Assembly: GCA_031291515.1 (NCBI GenBank)
Contig: JARLIW010000096.1
Span: forward strand, 1-37,760
Direction of reading: 5' to 3'
From: Beijerinckiaceae bacterium
GTDB taxonomy: Bacteria; Pseudomonadota; Alphaproteobacteria; Rhizobiales; Beijerinckiaceae
Length of the DNA: 37,760 nucleotides
The notes beneath the pieces are model-generated. The model was not told the origin of the DNA, made no database searches, and saw only the letters and a list, made by a program, of their open reading frames with translations. Positions 5,306 through 15,823 of this stretch are shown one piece after another. Position 1 is the stretch's first letter. Every line of letters starts with the position of its first letter. The translations under genes were made by a program, and so were the position numbers.

Positions 5306-6121
5306 TCAGACGACGCCTTCCGGCTCTTCCTTGCGGTGCGAGCGGCGATCAAAGAACAAGGCCTGGCTGACGACGGCCTTGAGGCTGTTGACGCCAAACG
5401 GCTTGGTAATCAGGAACGCGGGCTCGGGCGCCGCGCCGGTCAGGAACCGCTCGGGATAGGCGGTGATGAAAATCACCGGCACCGAGAACGTGCTCAGAAT
5501 TTGATTGACCGCCTCGAGGCCGGAACTGCCGTCGGCGAGCTGAATATCGGCAAGGATCAAGCCGGGGCGACGCCGGCTGGCGGCTTCGACCGCCTCTTGG
5601 TGCGTGCGCGCGACGCCGACGACATGGTGGCCAAGCTCCTCGACGAGCGTTTGAAGATCGAGCGCGATAAAGGGCTCGTCCTCGATGATCAAGACATTCG
5701 TCTGGATCTGGCGCGCGATTTCCTTGCTCGCCTCATCGATCAACGCCGCGGCCTCGTCCTCGCTGCATTCGAGAACGCGGCCCGTCTCGGTGACATCGAA
5801 TCCTTCCAGCGCGCTGAGCAGAAAGGCGATGCGCGGGCGCAGCGTGATCGCATCGAGATTGCGCCGCGCGCCGCTTTCGTCGGGCGAGATTCCGGACTGA
5901 TCGACATGGGTATTGACCGGCATCGCGCCCCACACTTTCAAGAAGGTGCGGTAAAGCGCGGCCCGCGCATCGGGGCCAGGATCAAACCCGTCGGGATCGC
6001 CGACAATCGCCTCGAGCGAAGCCAAAACATACGCATCGCCACTTGCTTGATTGCCGGTCAAGGCACGCGCAAACCGGCGGAGATAGGGGATATGAGAGGC
6101 GATGGCCTTGGACACTGACAT
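5306..6121 (-). CDS. phyR: PhyR, anti-anti-sigma response regulator of the general stress response
   Basis: 271 residues. Residues 1-140 form the sigma-like domain (PYLRRFARALTGNQASGD corresponds to region 2; the GFDVTETGRVLECSEDEAAALI stretch to region 4). Residues 142-265 are the receiver, with acidic pocket EDE (147-149), phosphoacceptor D192 in ILADIQLADGSSG, FITAYPE and the lysine in ITKPFG. When phosphorylated, PhyR binds NepR and frees EcfG; this is established for the family. It is divergent from nepR-ecfG, the classic layout, separated by 513 bases. No PhyK-type histidine kinase is present nearby. I find no EcfG-type promoter facing phyR. Confidence 0.96.
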   Translation of the reverse strand: MSVSKAIASHIPYLRRFARALTGNQASGDAYVLASLEAIVGDPDGFDPGPDARAALYRTFLKVWGAMPVNTHVDQSGISPDESGARRNLDAITLRPRIAFLLSALEGFDVTETGRVLECSEDEAAALIDEASKEIARQIQTNVLIIEDEPFIALDLQTLVEELGHHVVGVARTHQEAVEAASRRRPGLILADIQLADGSSGLEAVNQILSTFSVPVIFITAYPERFLTGAAPEPAFLITKPFGVNSLKAVVSQALFFDRRSHRKEEPEGVV

Positions 6122-6634: not shown

Positions 6635-6817
6635 TTGTCGTCCCTTCGAGTCAAAAAAACAGCTTCCAAGCCGGAAATCGCGGATCAAATCGGTCGCCAT
6701 CTCCGATCCGTTTACAACGATGTTCTCGTCCAGCCGGTCCCCGACCGGTTCCTTGAACTTCTGAAAGACTTCGATCCCGCCCCGCCCCGCGACAACGAAA
6801 AAAAGGCGGCGAAGTGA
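6635..6817 (+). CDS. nepR: NepR anti-sigma factor
   Basis: 60 residues beginning at a TTG codon (6635) with GAGG at 6624-6627, seven bases upstream; no ATG is available in frame. The core helix pair is visible: IADQIGRHLRSVYNDVLVQP followed by VPDRFLELLKDFD, the signature by which NepR binds EcfG or the sigma-like domain of PhyR. The unstructured N-terminus and lysine-rich tail are typical. The stop overlaps the ecfG start by GTGA, so the two are translationally coupled, fitting a stoichiometric anti-sigma/sigma pair. Confidence 0.94.
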   Translation: MSSLRVKKTASKPEIADQIGRHLRSVYNDVLVQPVPDRFLELLKDFDPAPPRDNEKKAAK

Positions 6818-7419
6818 CGGGAGAGTCAGCACCGGTCGCGCGGCCACCCGCCAGCGCGCAAATGAAGGCCGATTTGATTGCCGTCATTCCCAATCTGCGC
6901 GCGTTCGCCGTCTCGTTGTGCGGCAATCCCGACCGGGCCGATGATCTCGTCCAGGAAACCCTGGTCAAGGCCTGGACCAATCTCGGCTCCTTCGTCGAGG
7001 GCACCAATCTGCCGGCCTGGCTCTTCACGATTTTGCGCAACATCTATTATTCCGAATATCGCAAGCGCCGCCGCGAGGTCGCCGATACCGACGGCGCCAT
7101 CGCCGCCAAGCTCGCGACCGTGCCCGCGCAGCACGGCCATATGGATTACCTCGACTTCCGCGAAGCGCTTCAGCGGCTGCCGACCGATCAGCGCGAGGCG
7201 CTGATCTTGATCGGCGCGTCCGGCCTGTCCTACGAAGAGGCGGCGGCGATCTGTAATTGCGCCGTCGGCACGATGAAAAGCCGGGTCAATCGCGCGCGCA
7301 ACCGTTTGGCCGAAATGCTCTCGCTGCAATCGGGCGCCGAATTCGGCCACGAGGGCGAATGGCAAGCGCTCGATCCGACGGCCGCGGGCCATCGGCTGTC
7401 CAAGACCGGGACCGACTGA
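6814..7419 (+). CDS. ecfG: EcfG (sigma-EcfG) general stress sigma factor
   Basis: 201 residues from a GTG that overlaps the nepR stop. Region 2 is NLRAFAVSLCGNPDRADDLVQETLVKAW with the LVQET motif. Region 4 is LPTDQREALILIGASGLSYEEAAAICNCAVGTMKSRVNRARNRL, a standard helix-turn-helix for the -35 GGAAC element. As an ECF15-type factor it should drive the general stress regulon at GGAAC-N16/17-CGTT promoters. Candidate targets in this window are the sRNA at 14818-14896 and the KGG gene at 13060. Confidence 0.96.
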   Translation: MTGESAPVARPPASAQMKADLIAVIPNLRAFAVSLCGNPDRADDLVQETLVKAWTNLGSFVEGTNLPAWLFTILRNIYYSEYRKRRREVADTDGAIAAKLATVPAQHGHMDYLDFREALQRLPTDQREALILIGASGLSYEEAAAICNCAVGTMKSRVNRARNRLAEMLSLQSGAEFGHEGEWQALDPTAAGHRLSKTGTD

Positions 7420-8453: not shown

Positions 8454-8762
8454 ATGCGGCAGATCCGGCTTGATGCGTCGGGATGGACATCAACAGATGA
8501 CTTTTACGGGACCCTTCTTCCGGCGCTAGGCGCTCCGGAATGGCATAGCCGAGGTATCGACCCGCTCATTGACTCCATTATCGGAGGAGGCATCAATTCG
8601 GTTGAGACCCCCTACAAAATCGTTATTTACAATACAAAAAACATAGATCAATCTATTTTGGATCACATCAACTTAGCCAAACAATATCTAGCTGACGCGC
8701 GCAATGAAACGCTTTCGACTTGGGACAAGGACGTCGACGCGTCGATCGAAATTTTAAGATAA
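8454..8762 (+). CDS. barstar-like immunity protein
   Basis: 102 residues. The N-terminal half aligns with barstar: IRLDASGWTSTDDFYGTLL then LGAPEW, then the GIDPLIDSI block that corresponds to barstar's NLDALWD inhibitory helix, with both key aspartates kept. A second strand follows (PYKIVIYN). Barstar-family proteins bind and block barnase-type RNases in the cytosol. The ATG at 8454 lies two bases past the presumed old toxin stop (TGA 8450-8452), a toxin-immunity coupling now left without a working toxin. Base composition is AT-richer than the flanks, which fits acquired DNA. Confidence 0.75.
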   Translation: MRQIRLDASGWTSTDDFYGTLLPALGAPEWHSRGIDPLIDSIIGGGINSVETPYKIVIYNTKNIDQSILDHINLAKQYLADARNETLSTWDKDVDASIEILR

Positions 8763-14140: not shown

Positions 14141-14252
14141 ATTAAGACGCGCCCGCCAAAATTGCGGGCTTTTTCAATCTCGAGCATAGTCTAACTATTG
14201 AGGACGAGAGCGAACGCATCCTATAGTGCGGAACGGCAAGGGAGAAGCGGCG

Positions 14253-14804
14253 TTGGCTGTGGAGCGCGACAATTTCCGGGGACGCGATAACTTTGGCGAC
14301 GCGGCGTCCCGGGCCGACGATCCGGCGACATACCGGCTGTTCGAGGCGCGGATCGTGCCGCACCGGTCGCTGACGCCGTCCGGTTTTCGCGCCGTGATGG
14401 CCGGCGTCGGCTTGATCAGTCTGGCCTCGAGCCTTCCATTCGTGCTGCTCGGCGCTTGGCCGGTCGCGGGCTTCATGGGGCTCGACGTCGCGCTTCTCTA
14501 TTTCGCGTTTCGGGCCAATTTTCGAGCGGCGCGGGCCTACGAGGACATTCGCGTGACGCCGCTCGAACTCATGCTGGCCAAGGTGACGGCGGCCGGCACG
14601 CGCGCGGAATGGCGCTTTCACCCCGCCTGGGTCCGCCTTATCCGAAAGGATCACGACGAATACGGGGTGCTGGAATTGTCGCTGCATTCGCGCGGGCAAG
14701 CCATCGAAGTCGCCAAATTTTTAGGACCGCGCGAAAAGGCGGGCCTGGCCACAAAGCTTTCGCGCGCGCTCTCCGAAGCCCGGCGCGGGCCTCGGTTCTC
14801 CTAA
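14253..14804 (+). CDS. DUF2244 domain membrane protein
   Basis: 183 residues from TTG 14253, which has GGGAG at 14240-14244; GTG 14226 and GTG 14259 are alternatives. Two adjacent membrane helices (AVMAGVGLISLASSLPFVLL and the following GFMGLDVALLYFAF) lie after a short cytosolic N-terminus. They are followed by a soluble domain with RAARAYEDIRVTPLELML and WRFHPAWVRL. This layout is the DUF2244 family, which is of unknown function. A gene next to nth carrying DUF2244 is a common arrangement in related genomes, from memory. Confidence 0.85.
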   Translation: MAVERDNFRGRDNFGDAASRADDPATYRLFEARIVPHRSLTPSGFRAVMAGVGLISLASSLPFVLLGAWPVAGFMGLDVALLYFAFRANFRAARAYEDIRVTPLELMLAKVTAAGTRAEWRFHPAWVRLIRKDHDEYGVLELSLHSRGQAIEVAKFLGPREKAGLATKLSRALSEARRGPRFS

Positions 14805-14817
14805 ATCCGATTCGCCC

Positions 14818-14853
14818 AAAAAGAACGGCCGCTTCGGGGGAGGAAGCGGCCGT
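14818..14853 (-). terminator. strong intrinsic terminator of the minus-strand sRNA
   Basis: Perfect 11-bp stem (14825-14835 with 14843-14853) with a 7-nt loop reading CUCCCCC on the minus strand, followed by UUCUUUUU. On the plus strand no T-run follows. It sits 20 bases after the DUF2244 stop, but its orientation serves a minus-strand transcript. Confidence 0.85.
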
Positions 14854-14896
14854 CTCTCTAGCGCGCACCGTGATGGGGGATCCACAGTGCGTGTAC
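14818..14896 (-). ncRNA. candidate general-stress sRNA with two C-rich hairpin loops
   Basis: A short minus-strand transcript is predicted from the EcfG-type promoter at 14902-14926 to the terminator at 14818. Hairpin 1 has an 8-bp stem with one G-U pair (14865-14872 with 14883-14890) and the loop GAUCCCCCAU. Hairpin 2 is the terminator, with loop CUCCCCC. Both loops are exposed and complementary to Shine-Dalgarno sequences. This is the design of GsrN of Caulobacter (a sigma-T-dependent sRNA) and of the alpha-r14/cuckoo family, though sequence identity to any of them was not tested. No ORF on this strand fits the boundaries. The 5' end is inferred from promoter spacing. Confidence 0.7.
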
Positions 14897-14901
14897 CCAA
14901 C

Positions 14902-14926
14902 AACGTACCACATGACATTCGGTTCC
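14902..14926 (-). promoter_or_regulatory. perfect EcfG-type promoter of the sRNA
   Basis: On the minus strand GGAAC (14922-14926), 16 bases, CGTT (14902-14905): an exact match to the EcfG consensus. Transcription would start near 14894-14897, directly in front of the first hairpin. One such match per window is expected by chance at about this rate, so the weight comes from the terminator lying about 80 bases downstream. Confidence 0.7.
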
Positions 14927-15163: not shown

Positions 15164-15823
15164 ATGCTGGGAGGTTTGACCCGGACATTATTGTTGTCGA
15201 TTGCCGTGTTGGCGTTTGGTTTCGCCCCGGCATCGATGCATGGATTCGCGCAGGCCGATGACCTGCATACGGACGCGGCTCCGATTGGCGCCGTCACCAC
15301 CATGCCTTACGGCTGGGCTGATTTTTGCGGCCGGCACGCGGACGAATGCCGCGTCGATGCCTTGCAACCCGTTGATATCGTCTTGACCGCCAAAATTATG
15401 CGGACGTTGCGGCGCGTCAATGGCAGCGTCAATGCCGCGATCGAGCCTGTCAGCAATCTCGACCATTGGGGCACGATGCTCGACCATTGGGACTATCCCA
15501 CCGATGGCAAGGGCGATTGCAAGATTTATGCCCTACAAAAGCGTAAGATGCTAATAGAGATGGGATTTCCTCGCCAAGCGCTGCTCATGACGATCGTCCG
15601 CGATCAAGAGGACAACGGCCATACGATCTTGACGGTCAAGACCGACAAGGGGGATTTCATTCTCGACAATATGGTCGAGGATATCCGTCCCTGGGACGCG
15701 ACGGGCTATAAATTCGTCAAGCGGCAATCTCAGAGCGATCCCAATGTCTGGGTTTCCATCGGCACGTCGAGCGCGCCGCGTACGACGGCGGTGGCCACGA
15801 CAGCAAGCCGCGCGCTGAACTAA
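15164..15823 (+). CDS. periplasmic transglutaminase-like cysteine peptidase (BTLCP)
   Basis: 219 residues from the ATG at 15164, which has GGAG at 15152-15155 and begins a clean signal peptide (RTLLLSIAVLAFGFAPASMHGFA). Upstream starts 15107 and 15134 lack ribosome sites. The catalytic triad is readable: Cys in GKGDCKIYALQK, His in NGHTILTV and Asp in FILDNM. The family (Peptidase_C93/BTLCP) is periplasmic; some relatives, such as LapG, cleave surface adhesins, but no adhesin or LapD partner is visible here. A perfect CtrA box upstream suggests cell-cycle timing. Confidence 0.87.
   Translation: MLGGLTRTLLLSIAVLAFGFAPASMHGFAQADDLHTDAAPIGAVTTMPYGWADFCGRHADECRVDALQPVDIVLTAKIMRTLRRVNGSVNAAIEPVSNLDHWGTMLDHWDYPTDGKGDCKIYALQKRKMLIEMGFPRQALLMTIVRDQEDNGHTILTVKTDKGDFILDNMVEDIRPWDATGYKFVKRQSQSDPNVWVSIGTSSAPRTTAVATTASRALN

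Follow-up and report, generated by a model that had tools for sequence, protein, structure and literature searches.

A gap between two protein genes of a Beijerinckiaceae bacterium carries a motif of the EcfG type followed by hairpins with C-rich loops, and raises the question of whether the general stress response of this organism includes an RNA encoded there. The window (the whole stretch of DNA that was analysed, 37,760 nucleotides) holds this element at 14926-14818 on the minus strand, between a DUF2244 gene and a Peptidase_C93 gene; the stretch is intergenic, in agreement with the sequence-only reading, which had found no protein gene to explain it. The DUF2244 gene (PF10003; 14226-14804, plus strand) is the convergent neighbour and serves as syntenic anchor; its closest named relatives are Beijerinckiaceae and Methylocapsa records. 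The next supported gene, Peptidase_C93 (PF06035, by domain match), starts near 15164 on the plus strand. Pfam identifies phyR of the general stress response locus at 5306-6121 (minus strand), nepR at 6635-6817 (plus strand) and ecfG, the sigma factor presumed to drive the RNA, at 6814-7419 (plus strand). Within the window phyR lies 8.7 kb from the element and ecfG 7.4 kb, the distance that had been given for ecfG from the letters of the DNA. A Barstar-like protein (PF01337) is encoded downstream of ecfG at 8454-8762 (plus strand).

The Rfam scan of the window places no family over the element at gathering threshold. Its two matches are a tRNA at 402-473 and a full-length mmgR/suhB sRNA (RF00519) at 2436-2513 on the minus strand with 69.4 bits; as this is the single match to RF00519, identity of the element with suhB/mmgR is rejected. 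A second exact GGAAC-N16-CGTT motif is found at 14230-14254 on the plus strand, at the start of the DUF2244 frame. Since many DUF2244 relatives align only from about residue 31, this motif could be the EcfG promoter of DUF2244, in which case both convergent genes would be stress-driven, or it could be there by chance.

Read along the minus strand, the element consists of GGAACCGAATGTCATGTGGTACGTT, a 10-nt leader, hairpin 1, a 9-nt linker, the terminator hairpin and UUCUUUUU. The first part (14926-14902) is the exact GGAAC-N16-CGTT promoter motif that had been claimed for it, and G012 and G076, which belong to another genus, have this motif at the equivalent position (the element of G076 is that of locus L051). 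With the start placed from the -10, the predicted sRNA is about 79 nt long (14896-14818). The 79-nt RNA has a minimum free energy of -40.3 kcal/mol against -21.4 kcal/mol for shuffled sequences (sd 2.9; n = 200), a z-score of -6.6. Hairpin 1 (14891-14864) is formed by 10 pairs, 14891-14882 with 14873-14864, and its loop AUCCCCCA is the presumed target-recognition loop; the shuffled-flank p for this hairpin is about 0.005. The 8-bp hairpin with a CCCCC loop of the sequence-only reading is present as the core of this 10-pair stem. The intrinsic terminator hairpin (14854-14824) has 11 perfect, GC-rich pairs (ACGGCCGCUUC/GAAGCGGCCGU) and a second C-loop, CUCCCCC, and is followed by a U-tract of C and five T (14823-14818; UUCUUUUU including the stem end), so that the terminator described earlier, with 11 bp, a CUCCCCC loop and a U-tract, is indeed found at 14854-14818. 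CCUCC is the core of the anti-Shine-Dalgarno sequence. The two anti-Shine-Dalgarno loops that had been proposed are thereby reduced to one: the terminator loop, together with its closing C, contains CCUCC, and the loop of hairpin 1 is a plain C-run.

The exact motif by itself carries no significance. There are 47 copies in the 3.83-Mb source assembly (87.6% complete) against 87 for the backwards control, and with one mismatch allowed the window has 11 copies where 10.0 are expected. Ten distinct sites of the source assembly combine the motif (spacer 15-17) with CCCC within 38 nt, the control giving seven. The site of the window has the highest hairpin score among the ten (25; next 23 and 20); a terminator-like hairpin is found within 200 nt at three of them, and only that of the window has a C-loop. 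Elsewhere in the source genome, locus L189 (G000:C99:217) has the motif with a 15-nt spacer and then a hairpin with CCCC in its loop, with no terminator within 200 nt. Judged by alignment and predicted folding, it is the comparison with relatives that lifts the element above a chance pattern.

Within the genus, both C-loop hairpins are kept, convergent to DUF2244, in two of the three other genomes that the searches brought up (G002 and G003). The third, G001, has neither hairpin 1 nor a C-loop, and a plain terminator without a C-run remains. The loop of hairpin 1 has six C in G002 and G003 and five in the window. A covariance model built from G002 and G003 with the promoter columns left out (R1) matches the window at 14893-14819 with 47.6 bits and an E-value of 4e-7 (search of 83 sources, 445 kb); its next best match is the plus strand of the window, the element being a near-palindrome (E 0.002). 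R1 matches G076 (as L051) at E 0.16 and G012 at E 0.28, so the kinship of these two rests on place, motif and loops. Searching 60 relatives with the 136-nt locus at the DNA level gives, besides the source genome, only the G003 terminator as a notable match (E 1e-5, for one genome); the next best match has E 0.003 per genome, which for 60 genomes is close to chance.

Checks for conservation in relatives and for covariation had been suggested with the sequence-only reading, and both speak for a structured RNA: G002 and G003 retain the two loops, and stem 1 has changed in a compensatory manner, 5 of its 10 pairs differing on both sides among the three sequences. In the alignment of the three sister sequences (three rows, fitted to the structure), 97.2% of the base-pair cells are standard pairs, compared with at most 58.3% in slid controls, and both-side changes occur in 6 of 24 pairs, all except one in hairpin 1, compared with at most one in slid controls. 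Values as high are reached by 2 of 500 shuffles for four of the five pairing measures and by 7 of 500 for the fifth. The predicted two-hairpin fold is thus supported by compensatory changes. A coding RNA was considered and rejected, because the lengths of loops and linkers vary by 1 to 4 nt among the three sister sequences and these differences are not multiples of three.

The surroundings of the hairpins in the sister species could point to a different origin. A DUF4142 gene (PF13628) sits just upstream of both hairpins in G002 and G003. The distance from GGAAC to hairpin 1 is the same there as in the window, but GGAAC lies inside the last DUF4142 codons, and the -10 reads GGTT in G003 (weak) and TATT in G002 (poor). 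In G003 an exact EcfG motif precedes the DUF4142 gene by 78 nt, and the two C-loop hairpins stand at the end of that gene (L119 78-726; L010 ~810-888), so the hairpins in G003 are predicted to be stress-induced either way; in G002 no exact EcfG motif is found in the 3 kb around the DUF4142/DUF2244 pair. The window element might be what remains of the 3' end of a DUF4142 gene that has since disappeared: on this reading the sister hairpins would belong to a DUF4142 mRNA as its 3' UTR and terminator, with EcfG driving that mRNA in G003 at least, and the lineage of the window would have lost the frame. The gene upstream of the hairpins and the motif of the G003 gene speak for this origin, which we nevertheless regard as unlikely. 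Hairpin 1 of the window has been kept by both-side changes, the motif of the window is perfect and outside any gene, and a tblastn search of the window with the G003 protein yields no DUF4142 remnant (best E 1.5). Moreover, in a set of 110 DUF2244 loci (including short ones and genomes represented twice), DUF4142 is the neighbour in G001-G003 only, and stand-alone copies of the element occur near DUF2244 in another genus, which together make a stand-alone ancestor at least as likely.

These stand-alone copies belong to G012 and G076, two genomes of one other genus in which the exact motif, a 5' hairpin with AGCCCCCCAACC in its loop and a terminator with a CCCCC loop lie ~0.45 to 0.6 kb from DUF2244. 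G076 is identical to L051 over the element; its best fold with downstream sequence loses hairpin 1, which is regained when the sequence is cut at the U-tract. The family was searched with the pattern motif-N10,40-C5-N20,50-C5, the control being the pattern read backwards. It occurs in 12 of 199 family genomes, and the backwards control in 2 of 199; as the pattern was devised after seeing the window, G012 and G076, the comparison without these three is 9 against 2. A hairpin forms around the first C-run in eight of the 12 (shuffled-flank p 0.003 to 0.052), namely the window, G012 and G076, known beforehand, four g16 genomes and G219. Among the other four, G005 is doubtful (p 0.075, C8 terminator loop), and the matches in G009, G016 and G211 look like chance.

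The exact promoter motif and the loops are conserved near DUF2244 in G012 and G076 and at other places in the four g16 genomes, and the conservation check proposed with the sequence-only reading does not speak against it. The g16 genomes have the motif and both C-loops away from DUF2244; their RNAs carry, with some variation, GUGCUCG-AAUCCCCCCAA-CGAGCAC, then a middle hairpin, and finally a hairpin with the loop CTCCCCC (CUCCCCC in the RNA, as in the window) and a weak U-tract. G219 has the 5' C-loop, and the C-run of its terminator is mostly stem. A looser family pattern, which matches 29 of 199 genomes against 10 in the control, adds G011 and G108 (g9) and G118 (g25), each with a 5' C-loop hairpin and a terminator without a C-loop; in g9, g25 and g33 the 5' C-loop is found and the terminator C-loop is not. 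The looser pattern was discarded, as it misses the window itself and most of its matches, without hairpin or terminator, are chance-like. R2, a model of promoter and hairpin 1 from g16 and G219, was likewise discarded as too specific: it misses the window sRNA, and its one match in the window (24563-24517, E 0.51) is noise. The structural filter admits loops of up to 24 and stems no further than 14 nt from the C-run, so the large-loop cases L177, L178 and L185 score badly; the folds of L177 and L185 place the C-runs in a hairpin loop. In Methylocapsa and relatives, four loci (L043, L045, L048 and L055) have a C-loop hairpin 3' of DUF2244 and no EcfG promoter motif, all 111 loci with a DUF2244 match having been scanned. 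L043 and L048 have an upstream ACGTTTGGGTCA stretch in common.

The element might also be a terminator and no more, its hairpin simply ending the convergent DUF2244 mRNA or working in both directions, with the motif and hairpin 1 there by chance. No part is better conserved than the terminator hairpin, which, without its C-run, is the sole remnant in G001, and a single motif is expected by chance. Several features make this reading improbable even so. The U-tract is on the minus strand (UUCUUUUU, compared with UCUCUCUA on the plus strand), where no supported gene lies upstream that would need a terminator (the next genes, up to 17.2 kb, run on the plus strand), and hairpin 1 shows the compensatory changes described above. 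C5 loops are, besides, rare in terminators: CCCCC loops are found in 3 of 46 intrinsic terminators in 432 kb, all three 3' of DUF2244, and GGGGG loops in 0 of 46, in a sample of 68 DUF2244 loci plus the window that is itself centred on DUF2244. That the RNA is a cis-antisense regulator of DUF2244, the G-rich loop at the 3' end of the convergent mRNA kissing the C-loop of the RNA, is barely credible: the plus strand of the same hairpins does expose GGGGGAG, and DUF2244 is the neighbour in g1 and g10 (and in Methylocapsa for the C-loop hairpin alone), but the same architecture is found beside other genes in g16 and g33 and beside phyR in other families.

At the level of the order, the motif-C5-C5 pattern is present in 18 of 397 genomes against 7 in the control. 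In 7 of the 17 matching genomes besides that of the window phyR, in part or whole, lies within ~1.5 kb on either side, where the expectation for a random place is ~3 kb in 4 Mb and genomes of the same genus are not independent. The seven come from four other families, with G250, G515 and G549 in one, G482 and G543 in another, and G396 and G497 in the remaining two. L167 is the only one among them to pass the hairpin 1 filter; in the five phyR-adjacent cases that were folded, the extent to which the C-runs lie in loops varies. At class level the pattern (10 of 385 genomes, control 4) is barely above noise, and phyR is adjacent to none of the eight new loci. The full design is nevertheless seen outside the order in G587 (L249). 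Positions 1501-1640 of L249 hold an exact EcfG motif, a hairpin with seven consecutive C in its loop and a last hairpin whose loop has a long C-run.

The distance between element and phyR varies widely. It is 8.7 kb in the window, ~12 kb in G011 and G108 and 92-94 kb in G018, G081 and G112, and it reaches 374 kb in G012 and 1.6 Mb in G003. The two are on different contigs in G002, G076, G136 and G219. The values for G012 and G003 mean that closeness to ecfG, as seen in the window, is not conserved.

Among the post-transcriptional arms of the general stress response in Alphaproteobacteria, GsrN is to our knowledge the one studied best. The element resembles it in having a sigma-EcfG/sigma-T type promoter, a 3' intrinsic terminator and a 5' hairpin with a C-run loop, of six C in GsrN and five in the window; this is a likeness of design. 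In the text available from PMC5869019, GsrN of Caulobacter crescentus has six tandem C in its 5' loop and the katG leader as target, and homologues outside the Caulobacteraceae are named by proximity to the GSR locus, an EcfG site and, in some species, transcriptome data. The holders named in that text are the Caulobacteraceae, R. etli, S. meliloti, B. abortus, R. palustris and B. diazoefficiens, and not Beijerinckiaceae (PMC5869019). Like these predicted homologues, the pattern described here adjoins phyR in other families of the order, and its occurrence beside phyR in seven genomes of four families lends support to the GsrN analogy first drawn from the DNA of the window. Unlike GsrN, the window RNA has a C-rich terminator loop too, and its gene lies beside DUF2244.

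Hairpins with C-run loops, one of them the terminator, are also characteristic of the actinobacterial 6C/B11 RNAs (RF01066), as far as these are described in the available parts of PMC4046766 and PMC12395582. The latter, in the same parts, describes the terminator C-loop of B11 as the seed for pairing with G-tracks near ribosome-binding sites, and notes that C-run seeds make for poor target prediction in G+C-rich genomes (PMC12395582). The 6C RNAs belong to another phylum. Their two stem-loops typically have six C each; the window has five C in each loop, and hairpin 1 of G002 and G003 has six. We know of no EcfG promoter for 6C/B11. The 6C model (cut-off 47 bits) gives 38 bits for G003 and 31 for G002, both below the cut-off, and the window is absent from its matches up to E 5.

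The third comparison is with alpha-r14/NfeR1 of rhizobia (RF02344), which share with the element C-rich loops on freely drifting stems; in the available text of PMC10746234, the three hairpins of alpha-r14 each have CCUCCUCCC, and NfeR1 is transcribed from a sigma-70 promoter that LsrB and NtrC control. The window differs in having two hairpins, C-runs (loops AUCCCCCA and CUCCCCC) and the EcfG motif. Aligned at full length with the alpha-r14 model, the window (as L164) scores 26 bits, G003 32.1 and G002 32.2, and identity with alpha-r14 is rejected on the 58.8-bit cut-off and the lack of three CCUCCUCCC hairpins. A comparison with the alpha-r14 model had been among the proposals made with the sequence-only reading; it brought no assignment, the element reaching no Rfam threshold. 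Among the literature matches listed there is no report of such an RNA in Beijerinckiaceae, which is no proof of its absence, and PMC3927594 makes no mention of Beijerinckia, Methylobacterium or Methylocella.

Taken as a gene, 14926-14818 on the minus strand is likely to encode a stand-alone sRNA of the general stress response, GsrN-like, EcfG-driven and acting through its C-loops on G-rich mRNA sites. Stress would free EcfG from NepR via PhyR, and EcfG would then transcribe the RNA from GGAAC-N16-CGTT, a dependence suggested by the motif and its recurrence. In the predicted fold of the RNA, five C in a row are exposed both by the 5' hairpin and by the intrinsic terminator. By analogy, the two C-rich loops probably bind G-rich messenger RNAs: on the precedent of GsrN and 6C/B11, they would pair with G-rich sites near ribosome-binding sites or in the leaders of several mRNAs, and this pairing would change the translation or stability of those mRNAs during stress. 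For katG, the proven target of GsrN, a match is found in three of five genomes (the source genome G000, G003 and G012) and not in G002 and G018, which excludes it as the common target. Within 220 nt upstream of the longest katG frame, GGGGG occurs in G000, GGGG at most in G003 and neither run in G012.

Beyond the single gene, we tentatively suggest, at somewhat less than even confidence, that a class of EcfG-driven C-loop sRNAs pervades the order, in which evolution keeps the promoter and the 5' C-loop, in many cases together with another C-loop in the terminator, and leaves stems and genomic address free to turn over. Within the genus, members of this class may exist both as a stand-alone stress sRNA and within a DUF4142 mRNA that has an EcfG motif of its own, where they form the 3' UTR, the two forms interconverting. 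If this is true, the conversion between an sRNA gene and the 3' end of an mRNA can be watched in this genus. A signature of promoter and C-loop that needs neither sequence similarity nor position would make such RNAs searchable in further families. It would also make testable whether the stress response generally comes with an sRNA of the C-loop kind, and whether the loop of the terminator serves as a second seed, in the manner of B11.
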